Below, piece by piece: positions 54,793 through 59,806 of a stretch of 64,000 bases of DNA (position 1 is the first letter of the stretch; each line of letters begins with the position of its first letter). The position numbers and the translations under genes were made by a program. Location of the stretch: positions 246,403 through 310,402 of the forward strand of contig PAUF01000007.1 in the NCBI GenBank assembly GCA_002712715.1. Direction: 5' to 3'. Source of the stretch: Flavobacteriales bacterium (GTDB taxonomy: Bacteria > Bacteroidota > Bacteroidia > Flavobacteriales > BACL11). Below the pieces are notes generated by a model. The model saw only the letters and a program-made list of their open reading frames with translations, searched no databases and was not told the DNA's origin.

Positions 54793-55221
54793 ATGAAAAG
54801 AATCAATATATTTTATTTTGCCTTTTTAGTTCTTTTGCTCAACTCTTGTCAAGAAAATGTCGCTTCAAAAAAAGAAATGAAAAATGAAGAACCGAATATT
54901 TTTTTTAAAAATATTAATGAAGGAGACACACTGAAATCCCCTTTTTTAGTGCAAATGGGAGTAAATGGAATGAATGTAGAGCCGGCTGGATACTTAAATA
55001 AAGGATATGGTCACCACCATATTATAATTAATTGTACTCATATTGAAGATAGAAATTTTATCCCATTAGATGAAACACATATCCACTATGGTCAAGGAGA
55101 AACAGAAGCTAATTTAGATTTGGAGCCTGGAAATTATTGTTTAACTCTTCAGTTTGCTGATGGATATCATCAGTCTTATGGTAAAGATTATAGTAATACA
55201 ATTAATGTTGTTGTAGAGTAA
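54793..55221 (+). CDS. DUF4399 domain lipoprotein
   Basis: FLVLLLNSCQEN lipobox; GYLNKGYGHHHIIINC...THIHYGQGETEANLDLEPGNYCLTLQFADGYHQSYG. Confidence 0.8.
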   Translation: MKRINIFYFAFLVLLLNSCQENVASKKEMKNEEPNIFFKNINEGDTLKSPFLVQMGVNGMNVEPAGYLNKGYGHHHIIINCTHIEDRNFIPLDETHIHYGQGETEANLDLEPGNYCLTLQFADGYHQSYGKDYSNTINVVVE

Positions 55222-55265: not shown

Positions 55266-56240
55266 TTAAAGTTTACATTCGAGATTGACAAATAAAACTT
55301 CATCTGATCCCAAATCATTTAATCCTTTCCATGATTGTACATTTACAGATAGGTTAACGTTTTTAGACATTTTTCTTTCGATTCCTCCAATGTTATATAC
55401 TCCATCTTTTTCTGAGTTCCAGTCATTTTCTGAGGATACATTGTCCATCCTAGCGAATATTGAAATTCTATCATTTAATGTGTACGATCCATAAACTGAA
55501 GTTATATTTTTGGTTTGATCAGATATATTTGAGGCATTTTCCATAATGTTTCTTTCAACCCCTAATTTAATATTGTTTGCAGAATAAGCTATAGCTGCGG
55601 TTGTAATATTTTGAGATATATCAGAATTATCATTAACCATATCTCTAAATAGTCTTAAAGAAATAGAATTTAGTTTATAAGTCAGCCCTGCTCCATATCT
55701 AAACATTCCCAAATCATCTTGGGTGTTTTTATAACCTTCCCCATTAATAACTTGAGCGTCTATCGAAAAGTTTTCGGAAATTTTCATATCCATATTGATA
55801 CCAGCATCAGCTGAACTTGCCCATTTATACTTATCCAATGCAGATTTTTCAATATATCTTCTTCCCCAAGCTTTTTCCATGAATTTAAAGTTTTTAGTTC
55901 CAATCATTCCCATGTTCATTGAAATATTCTCAGTAGCTTTCCAGTTCAATGACGCTATCTTTAGAAAAGCTGTATATGCAGAACCTGCAGAATTACTTCC
56001 AATATCAAAAGTTATCTTTGCGGAGAACTGATCATCAATTTTATATCCGTAGCCAAGATATGCTCTTTTTACCTCAAACTCTTTATAATTATCTCTAGTG
56101 CCAAGTAAATCTTCTCCATCAGTTCCCTCAGAAAGGTCAAAATTGAAGTTTGAAAATATTTTACCAAATGGCTTGCCTTGTTGAGAATATGTGTTTAATG
56201 TAAATAAGAAAGCAGTTAATAGAATAAGTGTTTTTTTCAT
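55266..56240 (-). CDS. Outer membrane porin (phosphate-porin-like, next to Pit)
   Basis: Signal peptide; KPFGKIFSNFNFDLSEG...EVKRAYLGYGYKIDDQFSAKITFDIG; beta-barrel pattern. Confidence 0.8.
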   Translation of the reverse strand: MKKTLILLTAFLFTLNTYSQQGKPFGKIFSNFNFDLSEGTDGEDLLGTRDNYKEFEVKRAYLGYGYKIDDQFSAKITFDIGSNSAGSAYTAFLKIASLNWKATENISMNMGMIGTKNFKFMEKAWGRRYIEKSALDKYKWASSADAGINMDMKISENFSIDAQVINGEGYKNTQDDLGMFRYGAGLTYKLNSISLRLFRDMVNDNSDISQNITTAAIAYSANNIKLGVERNIMENASNISDQTKNITSVYGSYTLNDRISIFARMDNVSSENDWNSEKDGVYNIGGIERKMSKNVNLSVNVQSWKGLNDLGSDEVLFVNLECKL

Positions 56241-56330: not shown

Positions 56331-57836
56331 TTACATCCCAAGTTTTGCAAAAAAGTCAGTAAATGCTTTAGCAAATTCTGCTGGCATTTTTGTTACCATT
56401 AATTCAAATGTTAAATTGTCATTCACTCCAATTGCAATTGCAATTGAAACTATTAATCCTATAAGAGCGTATGACATGTCTTTCACGCCTAATTTTATTG
56501 ATTTTAAAATTGAATTGTCTCCGCTTTTCATAAGAGCCATCCCGATTTCTCTTCCAGCTAGCAATCCTATGAATACCCATGTTGTGCTCATTGGCACTTT
56601 AGAATGTAATTTAAAGTAAAAGAGTATTATGCAGTAGATAAAGTCAATTAGTGTCGCGAACCTAACATCAGTAACAATTGATTTTTCTGTAACAATTTTT
56701 TGTATTCTGCCACCTTTGAAATATAACAACAATCCTAAGCCAATAGCGATCACCGTTATAAAACCTAAAAATGATCCCTCACCCATGCTTCTGTTTAAAT
56801 AAACTGCAATGTTAGCGGCGTCTTGAGTAAGCCAAACTGCCCATAAAGTACCAGAAGTTAACCATTGCGTTATGGTCCATCCGAAGTGAGCTTTGCCAAC
56901 AAAATATTTTCTTGTGATTTTTGCTACTAACAAGAAAAAGACAAATCCTAATGCAAAAGCAAGTACATAACCACTCATACTTTTAGCTAAAACTTTTCCC
57001 ACGGCTGCAGGGTTTATAGCGAATGAGGTTAGTAAAATAAATGTGGTTGAAACAGGCATTCTTAGCCTAGTAAGTATTAGTAAGAATATTGGAGCAGCTA
57101 TTTGAAGAAAATGGAAATTCCTTGGGCTTTTTTCATACCCTTTAGCTGAAAGTCTAGCGTGACTAACATCTCCATCAACAATCCCATCAGGATATAACTT
57201 ATATACTAATTCTTGGAAGTTTATTTCTCCTTTATTTTGATTAATGAGATTAGTATAGTAGACAGTTTTATATTCATAATAAGTAGGCTCATTTCCTTCT
57301 GTGAAATCCTTTGTACTTATTTTGTATACATGACATAGTTCATTGTTTGAATTTACAAAAAAACATTTTCCATAGTCTGGGTTTATATATGAATCTTCAT
57401 TTAAGTTATGTGTCCCTGTTCCAACATCATTAATATTCCACTCAATATAATTGTTGTCTTTTGGTGAATGGTTTAAAAGAGTTTTTTCTAGCACATCCTC
57501 ATTGGATGTTTTAGTGAATATGGTAGTTCCTGCTTCATCAACAGTTAGCCAGCTATATGACATAGTAGCGACGAAAATTCCACCAATGAAAATCCATAAA
57601 ACCCACCATTTTTTATCTTGATTCGAAGCGATAAAGGTTCCAAGAGTTTGTATGCTATCGTTTGCTATAGCGGCATAAGCAGCAAATAAAAACCCAACCC
57701 ACATAGCTATTTGAGGATACGGGGTTGCGAACATGGCTACCATAAATGAAGCGCATATGAAGATTAAAAAATTATGTTCTGTTTTAGGAAACCATACTGT
57801 AGCAGGATAGCTAAAAGCTTTGAAAAGTTTTTTCAT
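56331..57836 (-). CDS. Inorganic phosphate transporter (Pit family)
   Basis: AAIANDSIQTLGTFIASNQDKK; HSKVPMSTTWVFIGLLAGREIG; PiT duplicated motif. Confidence 0.92.
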   Translation of the reverse strand: MKKLFKAFSYPATVWFPKTEHNFLIFICASFMVAMFATPYPQIAMWVGFLFAAYAAIANDSIQTLGTFIASNQDKKWWVLWIFIGGIFVATMSYSWLTVDEAGTTIFTKTSNEDVLEKTLLNHSPKDNNYIEWNINDVGTGTHNLNEDSYINPDYGKCFFVNSNNELCHVYKISTKDFTEGNEPTYYEYKTVYYTNLINQNKGEINFQELVYKLYPDGIVDGDVSHARLSAKGYEKSPRNFHFLQIAAPIFLLILTRLRMPVSTTFILLTSFAINPAAVGKVLAKSMSGYVLAFALGFVFFLLVAKITRKYFVGKAHFGWTITQWLTSGTLWAVWLTQDAANIAVYLNRSMGEGSFLGFITVIAIGLGLLLYFKGGRIQKIVTEKSIVTDVRFATLIDFIYCIILFYFKLHSKVPMSTTWVFIGLLAGREIGMALMKSGDNSILKSIKLGVKDMSYALIGLIVSIAIAIGVNDNLTFELMVTKMPAEFAKAFTDFFAKLGM

Positions 57837-57875: not shown

Positions 57876-57965
57876 TTAGATAAATAAAGCTCCGAAGAAT
57901 ACAATAGTCATAATCGCTAAGTATACTATCGGTGATATATCTATTTTTTTTGTTTGATTCTCCAT
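57876..57965 (-). CDS. 29-aa single-TM microprotein ORF upstream of pit (not in the ORF track)
   Basis: MENQTKKIDISPIVYLAIMTIVFFGALFI; ATG 57965-57963, TAA 57878-57876. Confidence 0.55.
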   Translation of the reverse strand: MENQTKKIDISPIVYLAIMTIVFFGALFI

Positions 57966-57985: not shown

Positions 57986-58052
57986 CAAATAAAGTATAAA
58001 TATTTGTTAGGAAAATTAATTGAAGGTTAACGTCATGTTAAGGAATTGTTAA
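57986..58052 (-). promoter_or_regulatory. Putative Pho-box array plus -7 element for the pit operon
   Basis: Reverse strand TTAACA-N5-TTAACA-N5-TTAACC-N5-TTAATT (58052 to 58014), then 20 bp, then TTTATTTG (57993-57986). Confidence 0.55.
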
Positions 58053-58101: not shown

Positions 58102-58109
58102 TAATTTTG
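58102..58109 (+). promoter_or_regulatory. Bacteroidetes-type -7 element for the response regulator gene
   Basis: TAATTTTG with TTG at 58079-58081 (20-bp spacer). Confidence 0.5.
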
Positions 58110-58124
58110 CACAAAAACCTTTAA

Positions 58125-58799
58125 ATGATTTCATCTCCGAAAGTCTTGTTAGTTGATGATGAGGAGGATATTTTAGAATTCCTTTCTTATAATCTATTAA
58201 AATCAGGATATATAGTATATACAGCTTCTAATGGTATAGAAGCATTGAAGATTGCTAAGAAACATGTTCCTAATTTAATTTTATTAGATGTGATGATGCC
58301 TGAAATGGATGGAATGGAGACATGTCAAAAACTCAAAGAAATTTCTATCCTAGACGATACATATATAGTATTTTTAACAGCAAGATCAGAGGAATATTCA
58401 GAGTTGGCAGGATTTAGCGTTGGAGCAGATGATTATATTACTAAACCGATTAAGCCGAAGTTATTGATTAGCAGAATTGAGGCAATTCTTAGAAGAAGTG
58501 GTAGTAGAAAAAAAAATAATGAAATTTCCATTGAAAATATTTATATTAATAAAGATACACACCAACTTAAATTATCAGATCTAGAGATTGTATTGGCAAA
58601 AAAAGAATTTAATTTATTGTACTATTTAATGACAATTCCAGGAAAGGTTTTTACTAGAGAAGAGATAATTTTAAATGTATGGGACGATGCTTTTGTTGGT
58701 GACAGAACTATTGATGTACATATTAGAAAGATTAGAGAAAAAATAGGAGATAATTACATAAAAACCATTAAAGGAGTGGGTTATAAATTTAACATTTAG
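58125..58799 (+). CDS. Two-component response regulator, PhoB/OmpR type
   Basis: LLVDDEEDILEFLSYNLLKSGY...LLDVMMPEMDGMETC; C-terminal winged helix VFTREEIILNVWDDAFVGDRTIDVHIRKIREKIG. Confidence 0.94.
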   Translation: MISSPKVLLVDDEEDILEFLSYNLLKSGYIVYTASNGIEALKIAKKHVPNLILLDVMMPEMDGMETCQKLKEISILDDTYIVFLTARSEEYSELAGFSVGADDYITKPIKPKLLISRIEAILRRSGSRKKNNEISIENIYINKDTHQLKLSDLEIVLAKKEFNLLYYLMTIPGKVFTREEIILNVWDDAFVGDRTIDVHIRKIREKIGDNYIKTIKGVGYKFNI

Positions 58800-58801
58800 T
58801 T

Positions 58802-59806
58802 ATGAAATTAAACAATCCGGTTAGTATATCAATAATCCTTGCTATTGCAATAACTTTATTGTCTGTTATCTCTGCTTATTGTTATATAAATAACATTACT
58901 TCTTTAGCCCTTTCTGTTGTTTTATTTTTATTGATCTCTTTATTTATTTTATTTTTTATAATTAAGCAGTTTATTCATGAGAGAATTCGGATTATTTATA
59001 AAAACATATATAGGTTTAAAGGAACATCTAAATTACAAAATTTAGATATAGATACCGTAGAACAAGAAGCGAAAGAATGGGCGGATCAACAAGAAAAACA
59101 GTTGCAGAAGTTAAAAACTGATGAGAATTATAGAAGAGAATTTATAGGAAATGTTTCGCATGAGTTAAAGACACCAATTTTTAATATTCAGGGATATGTG
59201 CAAACACTGATTGATGGAGGAATTGATGACCCAGAAGTTAATTCAAAATACCTTATGCGTGCAAATAAAAGTGTAGAGAGAATGATTAATATTGTTGAGG
59301 ATTTAGAAGTGATTTCAAAATTAGAAACTGATACTGAGGAGTTGTTATTAGATAAGTTCAATATACTGGTTTTAGTGCAGGAGGCGATAGATCAATTAGA
59401 GATACAAGCTAAAAAAAGAAATATTCATCTAAAAATAGTCAATGAAGCTAATACTAATTTTGTTTTAGGAGACAAACATAAGATACATCAAGTATTTATG
59501 AATTTAATTAGCAACTCTATAAAATATGGGAAAGATGGAGGCTCGACTACTATTCGTTTATTAGATATGGATAATAATATGATGATTGAAGTGGCTGATA
59601 ATGGAATAGGTATAGATGAGAATTCCCTTGATAGGCTTTTTGAAAGGTTTTATAGAGTTGATAAAAATAGATCTAGAGATATTGGAGGTACGGGACTAGG
59701 CTTGGCAATTGTAAAACATATAATTGAAGCCCATCACCAGACAATTAATGTTAGAAGCACAAAAGATGTAGGTTCTACTTTCTCATTTATTCTTGAAAAA
59801 TCTTAA
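58802..59806 (+). CDS. Sensor histidine kinase (PhoR-like)
   Basis: FIGNVSHELKTPIFNIQGYVQTLIDGG...NLISNSIKYGKDGG...DIGGTGLGLAIVKHIIEAH. Confidence 0.94.
   Translation: MKLNNPVSISIILAIAITLLSVISAYCYINNITSLALSVVLFLLISLFILFFIIKQFIHERIRIIYKNIYRFKGTSKLQNLDIDTVEQEAKEWADQQEKQLQKLKTDENYRREFIGNVSHELKTPIFNIQGYVQTLIDGGIDDPEVNSKYLMRANKSVERMINIVEDLEVISKLETDTEELLLDKFNILVLVQEAIDQLEIQAKKRNIHLKIVNEANTNFVLGDKHKIHQVFMNLISNSIKYGKDGGSTTIRLLDMDNNMMIEVADNGIGIDENSLDRLFERFYRVDKNRSRDIGGTGLGLAIVKHIIEAHHQTINVRSTKDVGSTFSFILEKS

Follow-up and report, generated by a model that had tools for sequence, protein, structure and literature searches.

A putative Pho operator in helical phase with the predicted -7 promoter element of a Pit-like transporter operon in a Flavobacteriales genome

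Introduction

In Bacillus subtilis, the PhoP box consists of TTAACA-type direct repeats that stand in an 11-bp register upstream of phosphate genes. The Pho boxes of E. coli and of cyanobacteria are tandem 8-bp repeats joined by 3-bp linkers, and the half-site of the cyanobacterial SphR Pho box is CTTAACCT (PMC1906773). Within the Bacteroidota, DAP-seq with PhoP of Riemerella anatipestifer yielded 583 peaks, with TTTAACA, likened to the ArcA motif, as the most conserved sequence. Binding of this protein to a 35-nt region of its own promoter was observed by EMSA; the accessible part of that report describes neither a four-repeat array nor phasing to a -7 element (PMC9603813). PhoB of Bacteroides fragilis binds the pstC promoter in EMSA experiments, and the accessible part of the paper gives no box sequence (PMC3547664). 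In Flavobacterium johnsoniae, PhoB and the TonB receptor next to it are induced when phosphate is depleted (PMC8115612).

A Pho box of this kind is already known from Bacillus, from cyanobacteria and, as the TTTAACA motif, from Riemerella. For the Bacteroidota, a major phylum of marine and gut bacteria, a search of the accessible open-licence literature turned up no Pho box written out as a sequence. Here we analyse a stretch of 64,000 nucleotides from a Flavobacteriales genome (the window), in which a four-repeat array lies between a Pit-like transporter operon and a divergent PhoB-like regulator gene. Very probably, this array serves as operator in a phosphate switch of the PhoB/PhoP type that activates the transporter operon, and probably its own regulator gene, within an apparently one-promoter regulon.

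Results

The array occupies 58014..58052 on the minus strand and was defined by its sequence, by the footprint among relatives and by a profile match. Its half-sites are TTAACA (58052-58047), TTAACA (58041-58036), TTAACC (58030-58025) and TTAATT (58019-58014), confirming the four minus-strand hexamers in 11-bp register that had been described in the initial annotation. The tandem direct repeats thus show the 11-bp period of a Pho box. With the Bacillus subtilis PhoP box the array shares the hexamer, the 11-bp tandem register and the position upstream of phosphate genes, but it comprises four half-sites, stands in fixed phase to TAnnTTTG instead of to a -10 box. The cyanobacterial SphR box has a near-identical half-site (CTTAACA in the window) and the same period, but belongs to another phylum and promoter type and serves mostly pst and phosphatase genes. 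The E. coli PhoB box is alike in that tandem 11-bp repeats replace the upstream promoter element, with a presumed activator role for the window array too, but its half-site sequence differs and it stands 10 bp before the sigma-70 -10 element (PMC1906773). As far as the accessible parts of the two Bacteroidota reports go, the R. anatipestifer PhoP motif agrees in phylum and core sequence, but with 583 peaks versus one site in the window's genome. B. fragilis PhoB likewise represents a Bacteroidota PhoB on a phosphate-transport promoter, but no counterpart of its target pstC was found in the window's genome.

Three in-register TTAAC units occurred once in the window and in none of 300 dinucleotide shuffles. 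From base composition, three TTAAC would be expected 4e-4 times per 64 kb, and the full set of three TTAAC plus TTAA 1.3e-4 times per genome. A genome-wide scan for the repeat pair, proposed earlier as a check and run as TTAAC-N6-TTAAC, revealed no enrichment (6 pairs in the genome, below the 15 of the back-to-front control). A bare TTAAC pair is not rare and by itself uninformative; the signal is thus carried by the tandem array. These unenriched pairs, and the AT-richness of the genome, are what a chance AT-rich repeat would lead one to expect. However, the shuffles as well as the footprint, the controlled profile search and the phasing described below all speak otherwise, and conservation already rules chance out, so that this explanation can be given practically no weight.

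A Pit-like protein was present in 33 of 100 genomes, own genome counted, and upstream regions were examined at 30 loci (own locus and 29 relatives). The pair TTAA-N7-TTAA preceded the Pit-like gene at 27 of the 30 loci (26 of the 29 relatives), and the consensus of the relatives shows four half-sites and then, at offset +63, TTTG. Sites had been picked by TTAA-N7-TTAA, which fixes positions 0-3 and 11-14 of the footprint in advance, so these positions were excluded as evidence. Features that played no part in site picking were conserved as well: the fifth position of the two half-sites is C in 96 and 93% of loci, A and T follow the second half-site, and further half-sites stand at +22 (xTAA) and +33 (TTAAC-like). 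Phylogenetic footprinting, the second check proposed for this locus, thus found the array strongly conserved in relatives, including the spacing to TTTG.

This TTTG belongs to TTTATTTG (57986..57993, minus strand), the predicted Bacteroidota -7 element of the transporter operon promoter, which was assigned from TTTG conservation and phasing. It differs from TAnnTTTG, the -7 consensus of Bacteroidota housekeeping promoters, by one mismatch and starts 20 bases past the last hexamer; the near-match to the -7 consensus noticed earlier at this distance is confirmed at 57993-57986. Its TTTG lies at +63 from the first half-site, and no -33 element is evident at this promoter. Among the 27 footprinted loci, TTTG was found exactly at +63 in 20, and many relatives have an exact TAnnTTTG. 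Two of the exceptions (L009 and L010) are owed to a mis-chosen upstream pair; the profile puts the box of these genomes closer to the gene, with TTTG at +63 again (L178 and L176). Other exceptions have their TTTG one or two helical turns nearer, at +52 and +41.

The same periodicity was observed in a set of 60 non-redundant sites, where 30 of the 53 TTTG located between +25 and +79 were at 30, 41, 52, 63 or 74 bp. These offsets form one residue class of 11 (binomial p=4e-18), and residues are flat farther downstream. Since TTTG is outside the profile, its phasing represents independent evidence, and it suggests that a bound protein would have to face the polymerase from one helical side. Helical phasing is as expected for an activator just upstream of the core promoter, and a fixed phase to the core promoter, as found here, is a property of Pho boxes. 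In-phase TTTG is absent from about half of the 60 sites, which counts against our reading.

In the opposite direction, TAATTTTG (58102..58109, plus strand), the predicted -7 element of the divergent regulator gene, matches TAnnTTTG exactly. Most relatives also carry TAnnTTTG before the regulator gene, with 40, 52-53, 60-63 or 73 bp between it and the edge of the box. Because the element recurs in this way, autoregulation, which the initial annotation had considered, appears plausible, and the array probably activates its own regulator gene as well. The many loci with divergent regulator genes preceded by TAnnTTTG would also suit an array that serves the phoB-like gene only, with the transporter operon as an incidental neighbour. 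But the half-sites are oriented toward the transporter, and TTTG is phased on the transporter side. Moreover, the box is kept before the Pit-like gene at loci without a regulator gene detected in the flank (such as L022, L023 and L030), and it precedes nptA-like genes that have no adjacent regulator. A function for the regulator gene alone is therefore highly improbable.

The first gene of the transporter operon is a small ORF of 29 aa (57876..57965, minus strand) with one predicted transmembrane segment, MENQTKKIDISPIVYLAIMTIVFFGALFI. Of 29 loci examined, 27 have a homologue of 25-33 aa in the equivalent position, with a consensus like DLSAVIYLxIMITVFFIAL. This membrane peptide is possibly a transporter subunit or a sensor link. 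It is followed by the Pit-like membrane transporter (501 aa, 56331..57836, minus strand), which contains an insert of about 120 aa at about residues 100-220 that is missing in most relatives (about 380 aa); long relatives are those of L008, of similar length, and L020 (545 aa). The motifs IANDSIQTLGT, TQDAANIA, MPVSTT and VPMSTT are invariant or nearly so in the family and can be compared with the duplicated ND..G and PxSTT. The window's protein gave no match to Pfam PHO4 (PF01384) at the gathering score, and its relatives stayed below threshold (E 0.006-1.7). Profile-profile comparison of the family with PHO4 was weak, sequence searches against the PDB left it unplaced, and structure prediction reached a pLDDT of 38 only. 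Since the PHO4 cut-off was missed, we call the protein Pit-like only, judging from its motifs and context. That is, the earlier placement of a Pit gene next to the array holds for a Pit-like gene, but not at the PHO4 cut-off. The operon probably ends with a gene that follows the transporter gene at a distance of 90 bp and encodes an outer-membrane porin-like protein (324 aa, 55266..56240, minus strand) with a weak Porin_4 match, and in one relative (L193) a porin-like gene follows a box of its own. A DUF4399 lipoprotein-like ORF (54793..55221, plus strand) adjoins the porin gene.

The proposed array binder is the PhoB-like response regulator (58125..58799, plus strand), which combines REC with Trans_reg_C. 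No other OmpR-family regulator was found in the genome (one match of the OmpR-type DNA-binding domain in 1.55 Mb, 91% complete). Its two best NCBIfam models are PhoB, both under cut-off (TIGR02154, 212.6 versus 296.2; NF053854, 205.8 versus 270). Regulators divergent from pstS in two relatives are 72-74% identical to it, so the association of PhoB with phosphate transport is found both here, divergent from the Pit-like gene, and in the orthologues. The PhoR-like histidine kinase (58802..59806, plus strand; 334 aa) has two transmembrane segments according to its sequence-derived topology and almost no periplasmic loop. Neither a PAS nor a sizeable periplasmic domain was found in it, with Pfam showing the kinase core only; it thus lacks a recognisable sensor domain such as PhoR has and scores under the PhoR/PnpS cut-offs. 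Because both proteins remain below the curated NCBIfam PhoB/PhoR cut-offs, we name them PhoB-like and PhoR-like on context. The PhoB/PhoR-type pair of the initial annotation is thus upheld by domains and context, but not at the level of curated models. The kinase without PAS sits in a genome where neither PstS nor PhoU was found.

Profile R1 (44 positions) was built from 20 relatives, the window's site being left out. Within the own genome it gave one strong match, the window array (E=6.8e-7; next best 0.15). Weak matches (E 0.15 and up) were rejected as noise, because many lie inside reading frames and none is a clear promoter-like site beside a phosphate gene. Among 100 relatives we obtained 34 matches at E<5e-4, of which 15 were non-training promoters, versus nothing below E=8.1e-4 with the reversed-profile control R2. 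Of the 15 non-training matches, 13 have a PhoB-like gene next to them or stand upstream of a phosphate transporter gene (Pit-like, PHO4, Na/Pi cotransporter or PstS). When 297 genomes drawn phylum-wide were searched, 39 had a match at E<=5e-4. The 35 downstream proteins scanned in this set included 4 PBP_like_2 (PstS-type), 4 BPD_transp_1 (read as PstC), 4 Porin_O_P, 2 PHO4, 2 DUF47/PhoU_div, 1 regulator and 6 proteins with CarboxypepD_reg domains, mostly TonB receptors; R1 sites also precede Na/Pi cotransporters in other Bacteroidota. Phosphate-acquisition genes are thus found downstream of the box in several genomes, as for other Pho boxes. Enrichment of the motif at phosphate genes is clear across relatives and phylum, with a single full array in the window's own genome. 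Together with conservation and TTTG spacing, this association supports the Pho box first proposed for the locus.

The exact pattern, array plus TTTG, was scanned in 84,980 genomes and returned 99 stretches, about 91 of them, judged by record title, from Bacteroidota or sister groups (Ignavibacteria, Chlorobiota), a skew that is only suggestive because TTTG in the pattern favours Bacteroidota. Downstream families include 13 Porin_O_P and 3 PHO4, and two of the Clostridia matches precede PstB-looking proteins. At L198, where the box is present, the arrangement is similar to that of PhoB and the TonB receptor in Flavobacterium johnsoniae. Many sites precede TonB receptors or small CarboxypepD_reg proteins, whose phosphate link is indirect, and these count against our reading. 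In Bacteroidales (L047, L066, L091, L106 and similar loci), many matching arrays stand upstream of the gene for a small secreted protein (about 110-120 aa, often with a CarboxypepD_reg-like domain), which is possibly an abundant phosphate-starvation protein.

The adjacent OmpR-family regulator might bind the array in response to a signal other than phosphate, for example redox, as in the 11-bp TTAA repeats of ArcA. This would agree with the likening of the R. anatipestifer TTTAACA motif to that of E. coli ArcA and with the broad targets of this PhoP, as given in the accessible part of the report (PMC9603813), and also with a window regulator that falls short of the PhoB cut-offs. However, in relatives and across the phylum this box is found ahead of phosphate importers that are unrelated to one another (Pit-like, PHO4, Na/Pi and Pst), and the orthologous regulators are divergent from pstS. 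A different signal is therefore very unlikely.

Searches for PhoU, PstS-type and Na/Pi cotransporter domains were negative in the 1.55-Mb genome (assembly about 91% complete) and positive in 13, 13 and 5, respectively, of 14 control genomes. A second array was not found in this assembly either. Being about 91% complete, it could be missing a second OmpR-family regulator or further sites. As the array is apparently the sole such site in a streamlined genome, the phosphate regulon would comprise one divergent promoter region. Within the window's own family, PhoU was detected in 1 of 20 Pit-like genomes versus 20 of 32 others (Fisher p=3e-5, uncorrected for relatedness), where PhoU matches include Na/Pi cotransporters with a C-terminal PhoU domain. 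For PstS alone, Pit-like and other genomes did not differ significantly. This distribution suggests that importers are exchanged behind an operator and a regulator that are retained.

Discussion

For the phosphate switch favoured here, we infer the following course. When phosphate is scarce, the adjacent kinase would phosphorylate the PhoB-like regulator, which would then bind the array head-to-tail, with one monomer per 11-bp half-site (two dimers). Once bound, the regulator would occupy a single helical face between about -72 and -34 and contact RNA polymerase at a promoter with TTTATTTG as -7 element and no evident -33 element. The operon of 29-aa membrane peptide, Pit-like transporter and porin would be activated in this way; in the other direction, the array would probably activate phoB-phoR through TAATTTTG.

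A further proposal is tentative, and we consider it possible rather than probable. Related genomes may keep operator and regulator and exchange the importer (Pit-like, Na/Pi, PHO4 or Pst), and the minimal Pho circuit of the window may read phosphate without PstS and PhoU. Its sensing unit would consist of the kinase devoid of a recognisable sensor domain, the divergent Pit-like transporter and the membrane peptide of about 27 aa, and one divergent promoter would be the whole regulon. If true, such a Pst/PhoU-less switch would bear on how PhoR-type kinases sense phosphate.

Neither the phased architecture of these Bacteroidota promoters nor the minimal circuit without Pst and PhoU appears to have been described in the accessible open-licence literature. 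What is gained is a usable sequence definition of a Bacteroidota Pho operator and of its promoter geometry, with which phosphate regulons could be predicted from sequence alone, uncultured marine lineages included.

In one relative (L027), whose regulator has diverged, the repeats that precede the Pit-like gene read TTTACA and keep the 11-bp register. This regulator shows 49% identity, and its recognition helix reads HINRLRDK, versus HIRKIREK or HVRKIREK elsewhere. In this single case, operator and recognition helix may have co-evolved.
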